From Pseudomonadota bacterium (lineage in GTDB: Bacteria; Desulfobacterota; Syntrophorhabdia; Syntrophorhabdales; Syntrophorhabdaceae): a DNA stretch of 34,258 bases. Shown one piece after another: positions 3,279-19,473 of this stretch. The notes under the pieces are model-generated. The model saw only the letters and a program-made list of their open reading frames with translations, did no database searches and had not been told where the DNA came from. The translations under genes were made by a program, and so were the position numbers. Numbering within the stretch: position 1 is the first letter of the stretch; the number at the start of each line of letters is the position of its first letter. Where the stretch lies: NCBI GenBank assembly GCA_026388315.1, contig JAPLKA010000129.1, forward strand, positions 1 through 34,258, in the 5' to 3' direction.

Positions 3279-3797
3279 ATGGAGTATTCTGAAATGGTAA
3301 TGGATCACTTTAAGAACCCACGCAACAAGGGCATAATCAAAAATCCGGATGGCATCGGAGAGGTAGGTAATCCGATTTGCGGCGACATGATGAAAATTAT
3401 GATAAAGGTCGAAGATGAACGGATTATTGATATAAAGTTCAGCACCCTTGGATGTGGCGCAGCCATTGCGGTCTCAAGTATAGTGACAGATATGGCCAAA
3501 GGGAAGACCCTGAAAGAAGCCATGAAGATCACAAAACAGGAAGTCGCTAAAACCCTTGGGGAATTGCCAAAGAATGAATTGCACTGCGCAAACCTCGGGG
3601 CTGATGCGCTTCACATGGCTATTATAGATTACTACAACCGGATAGCGGGAAAACAAAAGGATACATCCAGGGAAAAGGTTGATTATATCGGTAAAAGAAA
3701 AGGCAAATGCTACTGCCCTTATTGTGATACGGTATTCCTTAGTGAAACGCTTTTCTGTGCAAAATGCGGTAAGCCAACTGCAGGCCAGAATAAGTAA
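3279..3797 (+). CDS. NifU/IscU-like Fe-S scaffold with C-terminal zinc ribbon
   Basis: The first ~125 residues are an IscU-type scaffold domain. The three ligand cysteines are present: Cys34 in NPICGD, Cys59 in LGCGAA and Cys103 in LHCANLG. Residues ~140-165 add a zinc-ribbon-like tail with CxC..C and CxxC (Cys144, 146, 149 and Cys160, 163), which ordinary IscU lacks. The ATG at 3279 is chosen because AAGGAGG ends five bases upstream; the frame extends eight codons further but then the ribosome site would lie inside the gene. It is followed by a NifS-like gene after 62 bases, probably in one transcript. The likely role is assembly or transfer of Fe-S clusters or sulfur, possibly for the Fe-S-rich Dsr proteins. 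Confidence 0.85.
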   Translation: MEYSEMVMDHFKNPRNKGIIKNPDGIGEVGNPICGDMMKIMIKVEDERIIDIKFSTLGCGAAIAVSSIVTDMAKGKTLKEAMKITKQEVAKTLGELPKNELHCANLGADALHMAIIDYYNRIAGKQKDTSREKVDYIGKRKGKCYCPYCDTVFLSETLFCAKCGKPTAGQNK

Positions 3798-3859: not shown

Positions 3860-5023
3860 ATGAATACCATCTATTTTGATCATATATCTGCCACACCGCT
3901 TCATCCTTTAGTAAAGGAAACAATGATCAATTTTATACAGAATGACAACTTTGGAAACCCTTTGAGTCAGCACCATATTGGCGATGCCGCTGTCGAGGCA
4001 CTGGAAGGAGCGCGTGACCAGGTGGCGCAACTCATTCATGCAAATCCTGAGGAAATCGTCTTCACATCAAGTGGCACCGAATCAATCAATCACGCCATAA
4101 AAGGGGTTGCCTTTGCAAAGTTTAAAAAGGGGAAACATATTGTAAGTACAAATATTGAACATCAGTCGGTAGCAAGGACATTGAGGGTACTTATGCGCCT
4201 GGGATACCAGGTCACTGCTATTCCCGTTGATAAATATGGCCTTGTTGACCCGAAAGACGTTGAAAAAGCGATTACCGAAGATACGATACTCGTATCCATC
4301 ATGCATGCAAACAATGAAATAGGGACGATAGAACCTATCGCCGAAATCGGGAAAATCACCAGTGCAAAGAACGTGCTATTTCATACAGATGCTGTGGCAT
4401 CGGGAGGGAATATCCCTATCAATGTTGACGAACTGGGCGTTGACCTCCTCAGTATGGCAGCCAACCAGTTTTATGGACCATCCGGCGCAGGAGCCCTCTA
4501 CATACGCCCGAAAACGGAAATATTTCCCCTCATTGATGGCGGCACCCAGGAGAACAACAGGCGTGCCGGGACACAAAACATACTCGGCAACGTAGGGATG
4601 GGCAAGGCCGCTGAGCTGGCCCGTATGGAGATGCCCCAGCGCACAGAACACCTGCTCAAACTCAAAAAAGCATTCATTGAAAAGCTAAACACCCTTGAGG
4701 AGATTCACATTAACGGGCATCCTGAGCTTTCTCTCCCCGGTCTTGTTTCCGTTTCTGTAGAATATGTTGAAGGGGAGTCCATGATGATCATGCTCGAGGG
4801 GGAAGGCATCTGCGTTTCCACCCGTTCAGCCTGTGCAGCGGGTTCTTTAAGGGCATCACACGTCCTCATTGCTACCGGCTGCGATTATGTTACAGCCCAG
4901 GGAACACTCATCTTCTCTTTTGGCACCGGAAATACCCTTGATGATATTGATAAGGCCTTTGCAGCGCTTAACAAGAGCGTCACATTCCTGAGGAGCATGT
5001 CACCGCTTTACAAGAAAAAATAG
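3860..5023 (+). CDS. NifS/IscS-like class V aminotransferase homologue lacking the PLP lysine
   Basis: Length (387 aa) and overall pattern are those of group I cysteine desulfurases: SGTES (71-75), His101 in IEHQSV, NNEIG (151-155), Asp177 in HTDAV, the RRAGTQN loop and the catalytic-loop Cys325 in RSACAAGS. The segment that should read S-G-H-K before xYGPKG reads A-A-N-Q before FYGPSG, so the Schiff-base lysine is Gln203 (codon CAG, 4466-4468), the phosphate-binding His is Asn202 and the Ser is Ala200. The Gln that contacts the PLP ring is Ala180. Normal desulfurase chemistry therefore looks impossible. The frame is intact and well conserved elsewhere, so this is not simple decay. It may be a partner or persulfide carrier for the neighbouring scaffold protein; that is inference. 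Confidence 0.85.
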   Translation: MNTIYFDHISATPLHPLVKETMINFIQNDNFGNPLSQHHIGDAAVEALEGARDQVAQLIHANPEEIVFTSSGTESINHAIKGVAFAKFKKGKHIVSTNIEHQSVARTLRVLMRLGYQVTAIPVDKYGLVDPKDVEKAITEDTILVSIMHANNEIGTIEPIAEIGKITSAKNVLFHTDAVASGGNIPINVDELGVDLLSMAANQFYGPSGAGALYIRPKTEIFPLIDGGTQENNRRAGTQNILGNVGMGKAAELARMEMPQRTEHLLKLKKAFIEKLNTLEEIHINGHPELSLPGLVSVSVEYVEGESMMIMLEGEGICVSTRSACAAGSLRASHVLIATGCDYVTAQGTLIFSFGTGNTLDDIDKAFAALNKSVTFLRSMSPLYKKK

Positions 5024-7984: not shown

Positions 7985-9148
7985 ATGGACGAAGATACCC
8001 CTTTACTCGATGAACTGGAGAAGGGACCCTGGCCAAGCTACGTAAAAGAGATCAAGCGCATGGCCAAAAAGAACAAGGCAGCGAAAGATTTGCTCGGCAT
8101 CCAGGAATTGTCCTACAAAGACAGGGTAACTCACTGGAAACACGGCGGGATCGTGGGAGTAACAGGCTATGGGAGCGGCGTAATCGGGAGATACTGCGAT
8201 GTTCCGGAAAAGTTCCCTGATGCGGCAGCATTCCACACCATGCGTGTTAATCATCCTGCCGGATGGTTCTATTCAACGAAAAGTCTGCGTAAATTGTGCG
8301 ACATCTGGGAGCAATACGGAAGCGGTATGACAAATATGCATGGCTCAACCGGTGACGCTATTCTCCTTGGAACCACTACAGACAACCTGCAGCCGTGTTT
8401 TGACAGTTTGACGGAAGCAGGTTTTGACCTTGGTGGCTCCGGTTCTGCACTGCGGACAATTGCCGGTTGTGTTGGTCAGGCACGCTGCGAGTGGTCCAAC
8501 TTTGATACGCTCAAGCTTGTCCACGATCTTACCATGGAGTTTCAGGATGAGATCCACAGACCTCGCTGGCCTTATAAGTTCAAGATCAAGGCCTCAGGCT
8601 GTCCCAACGATTGTGTAGCAGCCATCGCAAGGGCAGATTTCACGATAATCGGTACATGGAGAGATACCCTCCGCATTGATCAAAATGCAGTCAGGAATTA
8701 CGTAGACAACGGGTTCGACATTAAAACGCTTGTAGTCGATAAGTGCCCCTCCGAAGCCCTTGAATGGGATGAGAAAAACAAGGAATTAAAACTCCAGGCG
8801 GACGACTGTGTCAGGTGCATGCATTGCATCAACAAGATGACCAAGGCGATAAGGCCTGGTGTCGAAGGCGGCGCTACAATTCTCATTGGCGGTAAGGCTC
8901 CTATTATTAAAGGCGCATACCTGTCATGGGTTTTAGTACCTTTTATGAAAATCGAACCCCCCTATGATGAAATCAAAGATCTGCTCCGTAAGATATGGGA
9001 TTGGTGGGATGAAAATGGTCGTACCAGGGAAAGGCTTGCGGAACTCATCGAAAGAATCGGCCTTAAGAATTTTCTTAAGGAAATGGGCATACCACCCGTT
9101 CCACAGATGGTCTATAAACCAAGGGCAAATCCGTATGTGTATTTTTAA
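7985..9148 (+). CDS. dsrA: Dissimilatory sulfite reductase alpha subunit
   Basis: DsrA forms the alpha2beta2 enzyme with DsrB and reduces sulfite with six electrons in the cytoplasm. The siroheme-[4Fe-4S] motifs are present as CX5C (Cys162, Cys168 in CVGQARC) and CX3C (Cys206, Cys210 in CPNDC). The inserted ferredoxin domain has its ligands at Cys254, 275, 278 and 281 (CPSEAL, CVRCMHC). The 387 aa are slightly short of the usual ~400-440, mostly at the N-terminus, with nothing catalytic missing. GGGAGGTGG just upstream supports ATG 7985. First gene of the dsr transcription unit, 55 bases before dsrB. Confidence 0.97.
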
Positions 9149-9151
9149 GAA

Positions 9152-9167
9152 CGCTATGCGCATAGCG
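9152..9167. repeat. 16-bp perfect palindrome between dsrA and dsrB
   Basis: CGCTATGCGCATAGCG is its own reverse complement. It lies three bases after the dsrA stop and could form a short mRNA hairpin protecting or processing the dsrA 3' end. The half-site CGCATAGCG also occurs at 12061-12069 in the repeat before dsrC. Confidence 0.6.
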
Positions 9168-9203
9168 CCAAGCGCAAAGTGTATTAACCAGTAGGAGGAT
9201 AGG

Positions 9204-10268
9204 ATGAACAGAACGGACATAGGACCACCCGATTACCGGGATATGCTCCCTGATGCAATAAAAATGAATTATGGCAAATGGAAATATCATGAAAATGTAC
9301 GTGCAGGTGTTTTAAAGCACGTCTCTGAAACAGGCGATGAAGTCTACACGGTAAGGGTCGGCTCTCCAAGACTCGTAAGCATCGATTTTATCCGGGACAT
9401 ATGCGACATTGCGGACAAATATTGTGATGGCCATCTGAGGTTCACAAGCCGTTCCAACATTGAATTCATCACCGATAACAAATCAAATGTAAACGGGATT
9501 ATAGAGGAAGCAGCGAAACTAGGTCTCCCTGCTGGCGGCACAGGGAACGGCATTTCGAATATTATCCATACCCAGGGATGGATACACTGTCACAGTGCAG
9601 CGACAGACGCTTCAGGTCTCGTGAAGGCGATAATGGATGAGATGTACGAATATTTTACCAGCATGAAATTGCCCGCCTATGTGAGGATCGCTGTGGCATG
9701 CTGCATCAATATGTGCGGCGCTGTCCACTGCTCTGATCTGGCAGTAGTGGGTATACACAGACGGCCGCCAAAAGTCGACAACGAAAAGGTGCTGGCACAA
9801 TGCGAGATACCGACGACCATACAATCCTGCCCGACAGGTGCAATAAGAAGGAATCCCGACCCCAACATAAAGAGCGTTGTCGTAAGGGAAGACCTCTGTA
9901 TGTACTGCGCTAATTGTTTTACTGTATGTCCTGCCATGCCGCTTGCCGATGCCGAGGGCGACGGTGTAGCCATCTATGTGGGCGGGAAGGTTTCCAATGC
10001 GAGGAAACCTCCGATGTTTTCGCGTATGGTTGTGCCATTCCTCCCCAATACCCCGCCCCGCTGGACAGAGGTTGTGGATGTATTAAAAAAGATTGTGGAA
10101 ATATATGCCGGGAGTGCAAAAAAATATGAAAGAATGGGCGAGTGGATAGAAAGGATAGGCTGGGAAAAATTCTTCAGGTTGACAGAGATACCATTTACAG
10201 ACCAGCATATTGACGATTTCACGCACGCCGTGGAGACTTACAGGACAACCACCCAGTTTAAGTGGTAA
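9204..10268 (+). CDS. dsrB: Dissimilatory sulfite reductase beta subunit
   Basis: DsrB pairs with DsrA. The siroheme-cluster cysteines are Cys129 ([14 protein letters not shown]), Cys166, Cys167 and Cys171 ([11 protein letters not shown]), with the same internal spacing (37, 1, 4) as in Desulfovibrio DsrB. The ferredoxin domain has Cys209 and Cys232, 235, 238, 242 ([17 protein letters not shown]). The 354-aa length is normal. AGGAGG six bases upstream fixes ATG 9204. It follows dsrA and precedes dsrD by 21 bases, the usual order in sulfite and sulfate reducers. Confidence 0.97.
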
Positions 10269-10289
10269 GGGGAAAAGGAGGTAAGGATA

Positions 10290-10493
10290 TTGGCAGACGA
10301 GATCAGCAGCGAACTGAAACAAAAGGTAATCGATTATCTTAAAACGGTGTCGAAAGCAAAAAATAAAGAAGTGGCCCATGAGCTCGGGATAGATAAACAC
10401 CTTGTGGACAAGGCAATTTCTGAACTGAGCAAGGAAGGCAAAATAGAATATTTATACCTTGGCGCCTCCTTTATAAAGCTCAAGGACACATAA
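10290..10493 (+). CDS. dsrD: DsrD-like winged-helix activator of DsrAB
   Basis: A 67-aa winged-helix protein immediately after dsrB. DsrD is known in reductive Dsr systems as a small activator of DsrAB; the pattern VIDYLKTVSKAK and the EGKIEYLYLGASF wing fit. The start is a TTG at 10290, eight bases after AAGGAGG; no ATG or GTG fits in frame. The stop TAA is directly followed by the dsrN ATG with no gap, implying coupled translation. Its presence argues for the reductive rather than sulfur-oxidising type. A generic DNA-binding winged helix is the alternative. Confidence 0.8.
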   Translation: MADEISSELKQKVIDYLKTVSKAKNKEVAHELGIDKHLVDKAISELSKEGKIEYLYLGASFIKLKDT

Positions 10494-11933
10494 ATGCCGC
10501 CACGGATCATGATTGCTGCCCCCGGCGGACGTTCCGGGAAGACCATCGTGAGCATCGGCCTCTGTGATGCCTTCAGAAGACGGGGGTTTACCGTACAACC
10601 ATTTAAAAAGGGGCCTGATTATATCGATGCGTCATGGCTTACTGCAGCATCCGGCAGGAACTGCCGTAACCTTGACGCATTTCTCATGGATGAAAAAACG
10701 CTCCTCCGGAGTTTTGAGCAAACCACCAATAAGGCTGACCTCGTTCTCATTGAAGGAAACATGGGGTTTTACGATGGAATAGACCCGGACGGCACAGGAA
10801 GTTCTGCCCACTTATCAAGATTGCTCAAGACTCCTGTAATCCTCGTCGTTAATACCTCCAGGATGAGCCGAAGCGCAGCAGCCCTCATAAAGGGTTTTCA
10901 GAACTTCGAACCGGAAACGCAGATCGCAGGAGTAATTCTTAACAACGTTTCAGGTGAAAGACACAAATCAAAGCTCATACAGGCAATAGAACGGTATTGC
11001 CATATCCCTGTGGTTGGAGCCATACCGAAAATACAGAACCTCAGCATTACGGAACGTCATCTGGGGCTTATACCTTTCAATGAAAGCACATCGGGAGCAT
11101 CAGACATTACCGATATAGGCACATTCGTTGAGCGCCACCTGGATCTTGATGCAATATTATCGATTGCACAGAACGAACAGAGCGAACAGAGCGAACAAAT
11201 TAATTCATCTGATGGTCCGGGGGATTCTCAGAAGACAAATCCTGTCGTTCGCATCGGCGTCGTGTTTGACAAGATTTTCAATTTCTATTACCCGGAAAAC
11301 CTTGAAGCCTTGACGCAGGCAGGGGCTGAGATCGTATATATTGACTCGCTGAAAGACAGGATACTGCCGGAAATTGATGGCCTTTACATCGGTGGCGGTT
11401 TCCCTGAGCTTCACCTCGAAGAGTTGTGGGACAATAGGTCTCTCATGAACGATATTGTCGTTGCAATCGAAGGCGGTCTCACAGTCTATGCCGAATGCGC
11501 AGGGCTTATGTATCTCAGCAGAGGGATAAGGACAAATGGCAAACTATACAAAATGGCAGGCATCATACCATCCGAAGCAGAGTTGTCCAGGCGGCCATTC
11601 GGACACGGATACGTAGAGGCGGAAATCGTTCATGAGAACCCTTTCTTTCCCATGGGTACCATATTGCGCGGTCATGAGTTTCACCATTCAAAACTTTCCA
11701 GCGTCAATGACCTTCGATGCGCCATAAGAATTAAAAGAGGTTATGGAATCAACGGCACAGTTGATGGTATTGTTTACAAGAATATGTTTGCCGCATATAC
11801 ACATCTCCATGCCCTCGGTACACCGGAATGGGCTGATGCTTTCGTATCTTCTGTATTGAAACATAAGAAATATGCTTACAAAGAAATTACAAAGGAGGGT
11901 CTATGGCAGCAGTCTGTCCAGTATGTAAAGTAG
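10494..11933 (+). CDS. dsrN: DsrN, CobB/CbiA-type amidotransferase (siroheme amidase)
   Basis: The 479-aa protein has the cobyrinate a,c-diamide synthase layout: an ATP-binding domain starting with the P-loop GGRSGKT (11-17) and a C-terminal glutamine amidotransferase domain with YIGGGFPELHLEEL and the nucleophile Cys335 in YAECAGLMYL, then a GHEFHHS histidine motif. In dsr operons this protein is called DsrN and is thought to amidate siroheme for DsrAB. About residues 226-245 is a low-complexity linker made by a 9-base repeat (QSEQSEQ). Directly abuts dsrD and overlaps the YHS gene by 31 bases. A cobalamin role is possible but no cobalamin genes are nearby. Confidence 0.88.
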   Translation: MPPRIMIAAPGGRSGKTIVSIGLCDAFRRRGFTVQPFKKGPDYIDASWLTAASGRNCRNLDAFLMDEKTLLRSFEQTTNKADLVLIEGNMGFYDGIDPDGTGSSAHLSRLLKTPVILVVNTSRMSRSAAALIKGFQNFEPETQIAGVILNNVSGERHKSKLIQAIERYCHIPVVGAIPKIQNLSITERHLGLIPFNESTSGASDITDIGTFVERHLDLDAILSIAQNEQSEQSEQINSSDGPGDSQKTNPVVRIGVVFDKIFNFYYPENLEALTQAGAEIVYIDSLKDRILPEIDGLYIGGGFPELHLEELWDNRSLMNDIVVAIEGGLTVYAECAGLMYLSRGIRTNGKLYKMAGIIPSEAELSRRPFGHGYVEAEIVHENPFFPMGTILRGHEFHHSKLSSVNDLRCAIRIKRGYGINGTVDGIVYKNMFAAYTHLHALGTPEWADAFVSSVLKHKKYAYKEITKEGLWQQSVQYVK

Positions 11934-12058
11934 AAGTTGAAGAGAAAAAGGCACGAGGGACAAGCAGCTACAAAGAGCAGACTTACTATTTCTGCAGCAA
12001 GGCCTGTAAGAAAAAATTCGACGAGGAACCTGAAAAATACACAAAAAAGGGTAAATAG
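11903..12058 (+). CDS. 51-aa YHS/TRASH-like cysteine protein in the dsr operon
   Basis: This gene has an excellent ribosome site (AAAGGAGGG, ending three bases before ATG 11903) and overlaps the end of dsrN by 31 bases in another frame. The product has Cys5, Cys8 (CPVC), Cys31 and Cys35 (CSKAC), followed by KKFDEEPEKY. This is the YHS/TRASH pattern (C, about 22 residues, C-x3-C), which binds a metal ion. In P-type ATPases and regulators such domains sense or hand over heavy metals. In this operon it could protect or load the Fe-S or siroheme centres; that is inferred from position only. It ends in the first base of the palindromic repeat before dsrC. Confidence 0.85.
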   Translation: MAAVCPVCKVEVEEKKARGTSSYKEQTYYFCSKACKKKFDEEPEKYTKKGK

Positions 12059-12072
12059 CCCGCATAGCGGGC
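12058..12072. repeat. GC-rich palindrome after the YHS gene
   Basis: GCCCGC (12058-12063) and GCGGGC (12067-12072) form a perfect 6-bp stem with an ATA loop, starting on the last base of the YHS stop codon. There is no T-run. It precedes copy B of the dispersed element, as a similar palindrome precedes copy A. Confidence 0.6.
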
Positions 12073-12091
12073 GAGAAGGGGTGGCTCCGAC

Positions 12092-12130
12092 AGCTCCGCT
12101 GATGGAGGGGGCGACGTGAGCCCCATAAAT
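12092..12130. repeat. Dispersed palindromic element, copy B
   Basis: Matches 142-180 over 39 bases with 7 mismatches and an identical 20-base core at 12105-12124 (stem GGGGC/GCCCC). It fills most of the gap between the YHS gene and dsrC, ending just before the dsrC ribosome site. Confidence 0.65.
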
Positions 12131-12148
12131 TGAAATAGGAGGTAATAC

Positions 12149-12466
12149 ATGGCAAAGACAACCCTTGGCGGAATTGAAATGGAGATTGATGAGGACGGTT
12201 TTATACAGGAACCGGATAAATGGAATAAGGAGATCGCAGAGGACATCGCAAAACTGGAAAGCGCTTACCCCATGACTGAAGAGCACTGGAAATTAGTGAA
12301 CTACCTGAGGGATTATTTTTTGAAGTATGAAATTGCCCCACCAATAAGAATGCTTGTCAAACAGACAGGAATCGATTTAAAAAGAATCTATCAATTATTC
12401 CCTGGAGGTCCGGCAAAAGGGGCATGTAAGATAGCCGGGTTACCCAAACCCACAGGATGCGTGTAA
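12149..12466 (+). CDS. dsrC: DsrC sulfur-carrier protein (DsrC/TusE family)
   Basis: DsrC accepts sulfur from DsrAB as a trisulfide between two C-terminal cysteines, which is then reduced by the membrane complex. Both are present: Cys93 in KGACKIAG and the penultimate Cys104 in PTGCV, separated by 10 residues exactly as in functional DsrC and unlike one-cysteine TusE/RspA homologues. The 105-aa length is normal. AGGAGG at 12137-12142 sets ATG 12149. It is downstream of the dispersed repeat and followed by a repeat hairpin with a T-run, so it may be expressed at a different level from its neighbours. Confidence 0.96.
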   Translation: MAKTTLGGIEMEIDEDGFIQEPDKWNKEIAEDIAKLESAYPMTEEHWKLVNYLRDYFLKYEIAPPIRMLVKQTGIDLKRIYQLFPGGPAKGACKIAGLPKPTGCV

Positions 12467-12471
12467 AACCT

Positions 12472-12560
12472 AAGGGGTCAAGGGGTCAAGGGGCCAAGGG
12501 TTCAAGTGTTTCGGAAACCCCTCGGACCCTGGAACCCTGGAACCCTGGAACCCTTTTTTT
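12472..12560 (+). terminator. Repeat-built hairpin with T-run abutting the dsrM start
   Basis: Four 8-base units of AAGGGGTC type (12472-12503) face three units of CCCTGGAA plus CCCT (12527-12554), with an intervening loop. The arms are roughly three-quarters complementary and are followed by seven T (12554-12560). It resembles a rho-independent terminator for dsrC, but the dsrM ATG is at 12561, so no space is left for a normal ribosome binding site. It is related in sequence to the GGGGTC repeats at 19837 and 20908. Confidence 0.5.
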
Positions 12561-13481
12561 ATGAAAATCTTCTTGGCTATCCTCACCTATTTCTCATACA
12601 CCTTCATCATCGCCATGTATACCATCAAGGCGGTAAAATACTTGAAGCTGCCTACACATCTCAGGTGGGAGCTCTACCCTGTTATGCATGAAGAAAAATA
12701 TCGGTACGGGGGTTCGTATTTCGAGCAGGTGGACTGGTGGACAAGAATACGGCAAAAACGTTATTTGCGTGGATTTCTATTTTTACTCAAAGAGTACTTT
12801 GTCCTTAATGAATATTTTCAAAAAAACAAAACCTACTGGTACTTTCTCTATCCATGGCATATAGGGTTCATTCTGATCATTACCTTCCATATGCTCTGCT
12901 TTTTCGGGGCGGTTGCCATGGTTTTCGGCATTACAATATCATCATCGTCGCAAAGTATGACAGGCATCGTATTTTATTATGCTATCCTCTTTACCGGGGT
13001 TGTGAGTTTCGTTACTGGTGCATTCGGGAGTGTTGGCTTACTGATAAAAAGGATCTATGATGAAAATCTAAAACAGTATGCTACGCCCCTGCATTACTTT
13101 ACCTATATTTTCACCTTTATAGTTTTTATCAGTGGACTCTATGCATGGTATTTTATAGACCCGACATTGTCCGAATACAGGGAATTCTGGAAAGGTCTCA
13201 TTACATTTAAATTCATTGATGTAGAATTTGGTGCAGCAGCGCATATCATACTCTTCAACCTTTTTCTCGTTTACCTCCCCTATACACGGTCTATGCATTA
13301 TATCACGAGATTCTTTGCATTTTATTTGATCAGATGGGATGATGAACCTAACATCAGAGGCAGTAAACTTGAACGCAAATTACAGGCACTTTTGAATCAA
13401 AAGGTTTCCTGGTCAGCACTACATATCAAATCGGGAAAAACGTGGGGCGAACAGGTTGAAGAACCGAAGATGCGAAGTTGA
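12561..13481 (+). CDS. dsrM: DsrM-like membrane cytochrome b (NarI-like)
   Basis: DsrM is the quinone-reactive membrane subunit that passes electrons to DsrK. The 306-aa protein has about five to six hydrophobic helices. Four histidines have the spacing of the NarI diheme b: His100 and His110 (10 apart, in WHIGFILIITFH) and His228 and His246 (18 apart). The ATG at 12561 fits the start of the first helix, but the sequence before it is a T-run of a repeat hairpin with no Shine-Dalgarno site, so translation may be weak, leaderless after processing, or start elsewhere. dsrK follows after 32 bases. No dsrJ, dsrO or dsrP is present, giving the simple DsrMK form. Confidence 0.85.
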   Translation: MKIFLAILTYFSYTFIIAMYTIKAVKYLKLPTHLRWELYPVMHEEKYRYGGSYFEQVDWWTRIRQKRYLRGFLFLLKEYFVLNEYFQKNKTYWYFLYPWHIGFILIITFHMLCFFGAVAMVFGITISSSSQSMTGIVFYYAILFTGVVSFVTGAFGSVGLLIKRIYDENLKQYATPLHYFTYIFTFIVFISGLYAWYFIDPTLSEYREFWKGLITFKFIDVEFGAAAHIILFNLFLVYLPYTRSMHYITRFFAFYLIRWDDEPNIRGSKLERKLQALLNQKVSWSALHIKSGKTWGEQVEEPKMRS

Positions 13482-13513
13482 GAGGATAAGAAGTTGAGAA
13501 AACAGGCAAAAAT

Positions 13514-15109
13514 ATGCAGATAGAAGATATAAGTAAAAAGAGCGAACAACTGATCAGGATAAAACCTGAAGACCTCATGCCCCTTCCCTGTCCTTACGAT
13601 ACACCCGATGCAGACCCGGCCATTAGAGAACTGACTCAGGATCAAAAGAATCGTTATGAAGCTTCTCTTGACGGCGTCCTCGCCATAGGCATACCCAAAC
13701 CCGAAACAAAAGAAAAAGAAGAAGAGCTTATAAAAAAATTCCTTTCAGGTCTTGCCAAACTCCTCACAAAAGAAAACAACTGGACATTTCTCCAGCCCCT
13801 CTTGCATTCACTTGAGTATTGTGTCAAATGTCAGATTTGTAATGATTCATGTCCTACCTATGTGGCAAGCGGAAAACAGGAAATTTACCGGCCTACATAC
13901 CGTCCGGAGATATTGCGCCGCATTATCAATAAATACCTGAAAAAGCAAAGCATCCTATCCTTGAAACTGACAGGAAGCGATATTGAGCTTAACTGGACAC
14001 TCATTGCAAGGCTCGCCGAGCTTGCATACCGGTGCACCCTTTGCAGACGGTGTGCTCAGATATGCCCTCTGGGGGTGGACAATGGCCTTATAAGCCACGA
14101 GATAAGAAAAATATTCAGTCAGGAGATGGGAATAGCCCCGAAAGAATTACATGAATCCGGAACTGTTCAACAATTAAAGGCCGGATCTTCTACTGGTATC
14201 GCACCAAAGGCATTGGTCAATATTATAAGCTTTATGGAAGATGAAATAGAGGAAAAAACGGGTAAGAAAATCAAGATTCCCGTTGATAAAGAAGGGGCGG
14301 ACATCCTCCTTCTCCATAACGCAGGGGAATTCATGGCATGGCCGGAAAACACAGAGGCCTTTGCTATTATCTTCGAAGCTGCCGGATTAAACTGGACCCT
14401 TTCGAGTGAGCTTGTTGGATATGATGCGGTGAATTATGGTGTCTGGTATGATGACTTCCAGTTTGCAAAGATCGCACTAAGACATGCCGAGGTTGCAAAG
14501 ACATTAAAGGTAAAGAAAATATCTGTCGGTGAATGCGGTCATGCCCATAAGGCAATGATGGTCATTGCTGACAGGATATTAACGGGAGATTTGAATATAC
14601 CGAGAGAAAGCGCCATTCCCTTACTGGCAGACCTCGTCATGAATAATAAAATTAAGCTTGACCCGGGCAGAAATAACTTCCCTATCACACTCCATGATCC
14701 ATGTAATATGGTAAGGCTCATGGGCATCGTAGAACCACAGAGGCAGATTTTACGTAAAATCTGCCCGCAGTTCCGGGAAATGGAGCCTCATGGAGTGGAA
14801 AATTACTGCTGCGGTGGTGGAAGCGGCTTCGCAATTATGCAATCGATGAATTTTCCTGACTGGAGAAGCGCAATATCGGGGCGCGTAAAACTGAAGCAGG
14901 TCCTCGAAACCTTCCAGGATGTTATTTCACCCGGTATCCCAAAGTATGTTTGCGCACCCTGTTCAAACTGTAAAGGGCAGATAAGGGATCTTTTCAATTA
15001 TTATTCTGTTTTTGAAAAGTGCAACATCTTTTATGGCGGGCTTGTCGAGTTGATAGCTAATGCAATGGTGGATATAAAAAAACCTTTTATTGAGTGGGAA
15101 TGGCATTAG
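13514..15109 (+). CDS. dsrK: DsrK-like HdrD-type Fe-S subunit
   Basis: DsrK is the cytoplasmic, heterodisulfide-reductase-like catalytic subunit thought to reduce the DsrC trisulfide. Two [4Fe-4S] motifs are complete: Cys103, 106, 109, 113 (CVKCQICNDSC) and Cys174, 177, 180, 184 (CTLCRRCAQIC). The C-terminal half holds CCG-type ligands of the special non-cubane cluster: Cys341, Cys397 (HDPC), Cys432-433 (CCGGGSG) and Cys480, 483, 486 (CAPCSNC). The 531-aa length is normal. The ribosome site before ATG 13514 is weak (only scattered purines). It follows dsrM and with it forms the membrane module. Confidence 0.9.
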   Translation: MQIEDISKKSEQLIRIKPEDLMPLPCPYDTPDADPAIRELTQDQKNRYEASLDGVLAIGIPKPETKEKEEELIKKFLSGLAKLLTKENNWTFLQPLLHSLEYCVKCQICNDSCPTYVASGKQEIYRPTYRPEILRRIINKYLKKQSILSLKLTGSDIELNWTLIARLAELAYRCTLCRRCAQICPLGVDNGLISHEIRKIFSQEMGIAPKELHESGTVQQLKAGSSTGIAPKALVNIISFMEDEIEEKTGKKIKIPVDKEGADILLLHNAGEFMAWPENTEAFAIIFEAAGLNWTLSSELVGYDAVNYGVWYDDFQFAKIALRHAEVAKTLKVKKISVGECGHAHKAMMVIADRILTGDLNIPRESAIPLLADLVMNNKIKLDPGRNNFPITLHDPCNMVRLMGIVEPQRQILRKICPQFREMEPHGVENYCCGGGSGFAIMQSMNFPDWRSAISGRVKLKQVLETFQDVISPGIPKYVCAPCSNCKGQIRDLFNYYSVFEKCNIFYGGLVELIANAMVDIKKPFIEWEWH

Positions 15110-18682: not shown

Positions 18683-18964
18683 ATGATAATGAAGCATATT
18701 GACGGAGACGACAAAGTAAAATTGTCTCTGTATACTCTGAGCACCTGCATCTGGTGCAAAATGACGAAAAAGCTTCTCAGCGATCTCGGTGTAGGTTACG
18801 ACTATGTGGACATGGACAGCCTCGAAGGGGAAGAGAAGGAAAAAACCCTGGAAGACCTGAAGCGCTGGAATCCGAGATGCTCATTCCCTTCCCTCGTAAT
18901 CAATAATGAAACATGCATAGTCGGTTATGATGATAAAAGGATCAAGGAAGCGATGGGACGATGA
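18683..18964 (+). CDS. Glutaredoxin-like thiol-disulfide protein
   Basis: A 93-aa thioredoxin-fold protein with the redox pair Cys22-Cys25 (CIWC), the cis-proline Pro69 in SFPSLVIN and a GYDDKR C-terminal motif, as in NrdH/glutaredoxin-like proteins. GGAGGG upstream supports ATG 18683. Its stop overlaps the next start by four bases (ATGA), coupling it to the FTR-like gene, so it is probably the disulfide protein that this reductase reduces, in place of a classical thioredoxin. Confidence 0.85.
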
Positions 18965-19473
18965 TTCACGAAAACGAAATTGACCCAAAAGATGTCGATA
19001 CGCTCTACGAAAAACTATCAAAAGACGCCGGATCATCAGGATACTACCTCAACCCTGACATAGAATTTACAAAAGCGCTTATCAGCGGTCTCATTACCAA
19101 CCAGAAAAGGTATGGATATTCTTCATGTCCATGCAGGCTTGCCGCTGGAAATAAAGCAGACGACCTCGACATTATATGCCCCTGTGATTACAGGGACCAG
19201 GACCTCAACGAATACGGCGCCTGTTATTGTGCCCTCTATGTTTCTAAGGCGGTTGTCGGCGGGGAGAGGAAAGTCTCTCCCATCCCAGAGAGGAGACCAC
19301 CAATAGAAGAGAGGAAAAAGGGCAAAGCGAATAATCCTAAGGGTGTTAACCCCTCTCTATCCTATCCTGTCTGGAGATGCAAGGTATGCGGATACTTATG
19401 TGCCAGAGAAAATCCTCCTGAGGTGTGTCCCATATGCAAGGCAAAACAGGAAAGATTCGAGAGGTTCATATAA
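18961..19473 (+). CDS. Ferredoxin:thioredoxin reductase catalytic-chain-like protein fused to rubredoxin
   Basis: Residues 1-105 match the catalytic beta chain of ferredoxin:thioredoxin reductase, with the six cysteines as CPC (56,58), CPC (73,75) and CYC (88,90), which hold a [4Fe-4S] cluster next to an active disulfide. The plant enzyme has CHC in the last motif; here the histidine is Tyr89. Residues ~136-170 are a rubredoxin-like domain with CxxC pairs at Cys140/143 and Cys156/159. The middle (~101-135) is a charged, proline-rich linker. With the glutaredoxin it forms a two-gene electron route from ferredoxin or rubredoxin to protein disulfides. Confidence 0.85.

Follow-up and report, generated by a model that had tools for sequence, protein, structure and literature searches.

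An IscS/NifS-like protein without the PLP lysine, encoded beside IscU and a dissimilatory sulfite reductase block

The locus

The window, that is, the whole stretch of 34,258 nt that was analysed, carries a gene for an IscS/NifS-like protein without the PLP lysine, and a gene for an IscU/NifU_N scaffold protein ends 62 nt upstream of its start (Table 1). The iscS-like gene is translated as a single unbroken frame. Pfam Aminotran_5 matches the protein from end to end (249 bits). The TIGR03402 (NifS) and TIGR02006 (IscS) models are also matched over their full length, with scores of 426.3 and 370 bits against equivalog cut-offs of 530.75 and 643.2 bits, respectively. An AlphaFold2 model made from 27 relatives has a mean pLDDT of 89, with low values in the loop segment 326–330 immediately after Cys325. 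It fits the structures of E. coli IscS, A. fulgidus IscS and human NFS1 with TM-scores of 0.92–0.96. With a full-length Aminotran_5 fold and the cysteine of a type I active loop, the protein qualifies as a member of the group I IscS/NifS fold.

The lysine-less gene of the window lies in a dsr block. A YeiH-like putative sulfate exporter is encoded on the other side of the module; its N-terminal part contains a long stretch rich in Ala and Lys, and a YeiH-like gene adjoins the module in about 11 relatives. Farther along, a ferredoxin-thioredoxin reductase beta-like protein is fused to a rubredoxin-like domain.

Table 1. Coordinates of the features within the window
Feature	Position	Strand	Basis
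YeiH-like putative sulfate exporter	1433–2965	−	
IscU/NifU_N scaffold partner	3279–3797	+	profile matches, neighbour survey
Zinc-ribbon-like C-terminal tail of IscU partner (CYCPYC...CAKCGK)	3708–3770	+	
IscS/NifS-like protein without PLP lysine, 387 aa	3860–5023	+	translation, profile and structure matches
Codon 180 (Ala), Gln183 position	4397–4399	+	alignment
Codon 200, GCA (Ala for Ser203)	4457–4459	+	codon reading, alignment
Codon 202, AAC (Asn for His205)	4463–4465	+	codon reading, alignment
Codon 203, CAG (Gln), E. coli IscS Lys206 position	4466–4468	+	codon reading, alignment
Codon 325 (Cys), retained loop cysteine, Cys328 position	4832–4834	+	alignment
Codon 351 (Ile), Arg354 position	4910–4912	+	alignment
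Sulfite-reduction block: dsrA-dsrB, small ORF, cobB/dsrN-like, dsrM-like, dsrK-like	7985–15109		
dsrA, dissimilatory sulfite reductase alpha	7985–9148	+	profile match
dsrB	9204–10268	+	
Small ORF of the block	10290–10493		
Ferredoxin-thioredoxin reductase beta-like protein fused to rubredoxin-like domain	18961–19473		

Active-site residues

The overall fold, the loop cysteine and the IscU partner are shared with E. coli IscS and human NFS1. However, Gln203, Ala180, Ala200, Asn202 and Ile351 stand in place of E. coli IscS Lys206, Gln183, Ser203, His205 and Arg354, respectively, whereas His104, Asp180, Thr243 and Cys328 are kept as His101, Asp177, Thr238 and Cys325. The lysine column is shown by alignments to PDB chains as well. 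A sequence-only reading of the locus had listed the changes at positions 203, 202, 200 and 180, all of which are real, along with the retained loop cysteine; the loss of the arginine had been missed. Thus two of the residues expected of a cysteine desulfurase, the aldimine lysine and the arginine for the substrate carboxylate, are absent.

Gln183 bonds to O3′ of PLP, and Arg354 is reported to hold the carboxylate of the cysteine substrate (PMC9978102). Desulfurase activity is lost in the K206A and Q183E variants of E. coli IscS, but some PLP remains bound to K206A (PMC9978102). Loss of cysteine desulfuration is therefore inferred for the lysine-less proteins from their residues, activity not having been assayed. 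Loss of the cofactor need not follow, because His101 and Asp177 are kept and the E. coli K206A variant retains some PLP; PLP binding in the window protein may or may not persist.

Conservation across the lysine-less clade

The nearest relatives in the genome contigs (47–95 % identity) show the same lysine loss. Among 46 genomes of the order to which the source genome belongs, 21 clade members were found and all 21 carry Asn202-Gln203; the change is neither a chance event nor peculiar to one strain. In a careful tree, computed with the trait columns left out, the bacterial lysine-less proteins form one clade with support of 100/99. Record titles within this clade include Syntrophorhabdus, Desulfobacterales, Nitrospirae, Scalindua, Dehalococcoidia, WOR-3 and Aerophobetes. 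Conservation of Gln203 itself holds within the order and fails beyond it: the position is Q in 45 of the 57 bacterial sequences, S in 5, P and T in 2 each, and A, M and L in 1 each. The conserved trait is thus the absence of the lysine, not the presence of glutamine.

The 93 lysine-less sequences compared (57 bacterial and 36 of the Archaeoglobus type) were set against 104 lysine-bearing homologues, and the scan was restricted to columns fixed in the latter. Lys206 and Arg354 are each present in 104/104 lysine-bearing and 0/93 lysine-less sequences, and Gln183 in 103/104 and 0/93. His205 is missing from all Archaeoglobus-type and most bacterial lysine-less sequences. Conversely, the loop cysteine is retained in 92/93 lysine-less sequences (104/104 lysine-bearing), and His104, Asp180 and Thr243 are nearly constant in both lysine-less groups. 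No substitute lysine was found in the clade among invariant columns or those conserved at ≥90 %. The conserved PLP contacts His101 and Asp177, together with the PLP held by E. coli K206A, leave some room for an enzyme that still uses PLP or PMP but catalyses a different reaction or relies on a changed catalytic residue. Such an enzyme would have to accommodate a variable residue at the lysine position, no conserved lysine elsewhere and no substrate arginine, and we regard it as improbable.

Codon comparisons show that the lysine-less gene is under purifying selection, with pairwise dN/dS within the clade of about 0.03–0.08 where dS could be estimated. The proposal that PLP chemistry had been lost under selection is well supported as far as desulfuration is concerned, given the clade-wide loss of Lys206, Gln183 and Arg354 and these ratios; the loss need not extend to PLP binding. 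The ratios and the identical residues across the 21 members of the order also rule out a sequencing error. A decaying pseudogene or a faulty assembly could be suspected from an in-frame deletion in one relative, yet the frames are open at full length across a clade of many phyla, the operon with IscU is conserved and dN/dS is low; this reading is already contradicted by the data and can be given almost no weight.

The deletion, in a relative of about 95 % identity (G027; loci L009, L109 and L214), spans 42 nt and removes 14 residues including loop Cys325; it accounts for the single lysine-less sequence of the 93 in which the loop cysteine is absent. Unless it is an assembly error, it speaks against an essential loop cysteine.

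Relation to known lysine-less IscS proteins

Proteins of this kind are already known. A. fulgidus IscS has no desulfurase activity, and one of its cysteines serves as a ligand of the cluster held by IscU (PMC7585200); its structures are available as PDB 4eb5, 4eb7 and 4hvk, with the D199K mutant as 4r5f. The window protein meets the features of the A. fulgidus type, namely replaced lysine, Gln183 and Arg354, a kept loop cysteine and an adjacent iscU. Both proteins have the same fold, and both have Ala for Gln183 and Asn for His205. They differ at the lysine position (Asp199 in A. fulgidus, Gln in the window protein), at the Arg354 position (Leu and Ile, respectively) and at Ser203, which is kept in A. 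fulgidus and is Ala200 here. Additionally, A. fulgidus IscU is without the zinc-ribbon tail of the window IscU, and the operon context is TusA/DsrE in the former and dsrAB in the latter.

IscS1 of Methanosarcina acetivorans (MA0808) is likewise without the PLP lysine and is clustered with iscU and additional genes, the cluster having been described with four genes of unknown function (PMC7585200). A Methanosarcina type was found among our loci (T-type), with Thr at the lysine position, Arg354 kept and His104 replaced by Asp. These loci share the active-loop motif of M. acetivorans IscS1 and have TusA and DsrE adjoining.

The bacterial and A. fulgidus types form separate supported clades in the careful tree; the AU test nevertheless leaves their union unrejected (p 0.556). 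Overall the trees show three lysine changes, and AU tests do not reject one lysine-less clade (p 0.568, 0.556 and 0.315), so the number of losses can be stated only as one to three. Because the lysine-less loci were selected for their resemblance to the window protein or A. fulgidus IscS, their number is not a frequency. The open-licence papers that were searched describe neither the bacterial clade nor the accompanying loss of Arg354, and mention neither the TusA/DsrE nor the dsrAB association. What appears to be new is the bacterial breadth and this gene context.

Pairing with IscU

An IscU gene lies just upstream of the lysine-less gene in 21/21 clade members of the order. Where a locus had 1.4 kb or more of flanking sequence in each direction, the survey placed IscU within 3 kb on the same strand in 71 of 77 lysine-less and 53 of 91 lysine-bearing loci. 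The partner IscUs of lysine-less loci retain all three cluster cysteines and the Asp of IscU, as does that of the window. A zinc-ribbon-like IscU tail is present in 26/50 bacterial lysine-less loci and in 0/58 lysine-bearing loci. The suggestion that the protein is a functional partner of the adjacent NifU-like (IscU) protein is supported by the near-universal gene pairing and by the A. fulgidus IscS-IscU structures.

The source genome also encodes a lysine-bearing NifS beside a full-length NifU (contig C110) and a further lysine-bearing IscS (C52). Contig C53 (54245–55423; L003/L221) encodes another lysine-less member of this bacterial clade, which has a longer active loop and an IscU gene downstream. 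SUF was considered as the main Fe-S pathway of this genome and was rejected, there being no SufBD match; Fe-S assembly here appears to rest on NifU/NifS- and IscU/IscS-type genes.

All genomes of the order that carry the lysine-less gene and were inspected for lysine-bearing paralogues have them (L002 and L004 in the source genome). They would be needed by a regulatory or decoy subunit, forming heterodimers with a lysine-bearing IscS/NifS or competing with it for IscU and so tuning sulfur flow. Such a role is unlikely: the lysine-less gene comes with an IscU of its own, and outside the order it is the sole match at E ≤ 1e-60 in two genomes (G049 and G060).

Sulfur-carrier genes

TusA or DsrE is encoded within 3 kb on the same strand, flank lengths having been checked, at 48/77 lysine-less loci and at 0/91 lysine-bearing loci. 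By type, the adjacency is 11/40 for bacterial, 32/32 for Archaeoglobus-type and 5/5 for Methanosarcina-type loci. The archaeal gene order is TusA-DsrE-IscS-IscU; bacterial orders are IscS-IscU-DsrE-TusA or TusA-IscS. In one genome, which encodes the crystallised A. fulgidus chain at 100 % identity, the order is DsrE-IscS-IscU for one copy and TusA-DsrE-IscS-IscU for the second (L257 and L258). The neighbouring TusA proteins keep their cysteine, and the DsrE neighbours have one in common.

Several points limit the contrast. The losses number only one to three, so it is not a count of independent events, and a test on independent pairs found only 3 pairs, with which significance is impossible. 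Most of the sequences behind the TusA and DsrE models came from lysine-less neighbourhoods, which is a bias, although two TusA genes of the source genome that had no part in the model are also detected. One TusA gene of that genome is some 5 kb away from the lysine-bearing nifS of C110, beyond the 3 kb limit. Additionally, neither gene is adjacent to the lysine-less gene in the window's lineage, and a role for TusA/DsrE there is therefore by analogy.

DsrE accepts sulfur from sulfide as a persulfide (PMC3397948), and IscS is a docking site for TusA (PMC2854127). Since TusA is displaced from IscS by IscU in E. coli (PMC2854127), a relay from TusA to IscU would need alternating docking.

Sulfite reduction and other neighbours in the order

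Within the order, 19 of the 22 genomes that carry the lysine-less gene also have dsrA, as do 2 of the 24 that lack it (Fisher p ~1e-7, kinship uncorrected). The 22 include one genome (G039) counted from a contig-end fragment in which the lysine position is unreadable. The exceptions are three genomes with the gene and without dsrA, and two with dsrA only. In three genomes (G022, G025 and G041) dsrA directly follows the iscS-like gene.

Other neighbours raise the possibility of molybdenum/tungsten cofactor sulfuration, or another use of a sulfur carrier, in the window's lineage rather than general Fe-S assembly. In several relatives of the order the iscS-like gene has a MoaE-like gene immediately after it, and in one family (f2) the iscU-iscS pair has a MoaD/ThiS-like gene ahead of it. 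The window gene is flanked by a molybdate/tungstate-type ABC transporter and by a radical SAM/SPASM protein with weak similarity to a tungsten-cofactor maturase. However, the constant partner is IscU, neither MoaD nor MoaE, and the Mo/W-type neighbours are missing from most relatives outside the order. We consider this role unlikely also.

A possible role in cluster assembly

The reading we favour, with moderate confidence, is that of a desulfurase-dead IscS that helps the neighbouring IscU to build clusters from sulfide or carrier-bound sulfur by means of its loop cysteine. On this reading the window protein could not draw sulfur from cysteine; it would dock on IscU as a dimer and present Cys325. 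This cysteine would either ligate the cluster, which is what has been reported for A. fulgidus, or relay a persulfide. A persulfide carrier and a scaffold or ligand partner cannot be told apart from sequence. The sulfur would be sulfide or carrier-bound sulfur; the carriers would be TusA/DsrE in most archaeal relatives and in some bacterial ones, and in the window's lineage the source would probably be products of sulfite reduction by DsrAB. The lysine-bearing NifS beside the full-length NifU may cover the ordinary, cysteine-dependent supply. IscU is fed by sulfide in an E. coli iscS mutant (PMC13015791). The relay, the ligand, the identity of the donor and any Dsr-specific role are inferred, none having been assayed in any bacterial member.

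A broader proposal, more tentative and somewhat short of an even chance in our judgement, is that these proteins constitute a widespread cysteine-independent ISC branch in sulfidic anaerobes, in which a dead IscS takes up sulfane sulfur on its loop cysteine, from TusA/DsrE carriers or from sulfite respiration linked to DsrAB, and hands it on to IscU. Where the A. fulgidus IscS-IscU complex obtains its sulfur is an open question, and this branch, if it exists, would answer it in a testable way.

In the textbook scheme a cysteine desulfurase carries out the first step of Fe-S assembly. An IscU partner that, judged by its residues, cannot desulfurate cysteine is retained in a large set of anaerobes, and the neighbourhood of the lysine-less genes points to inorganic sulfur carriers as the donor. 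Where automatic pipelines label such a protein 'cysteine desulfurase', the label is probably wrong.
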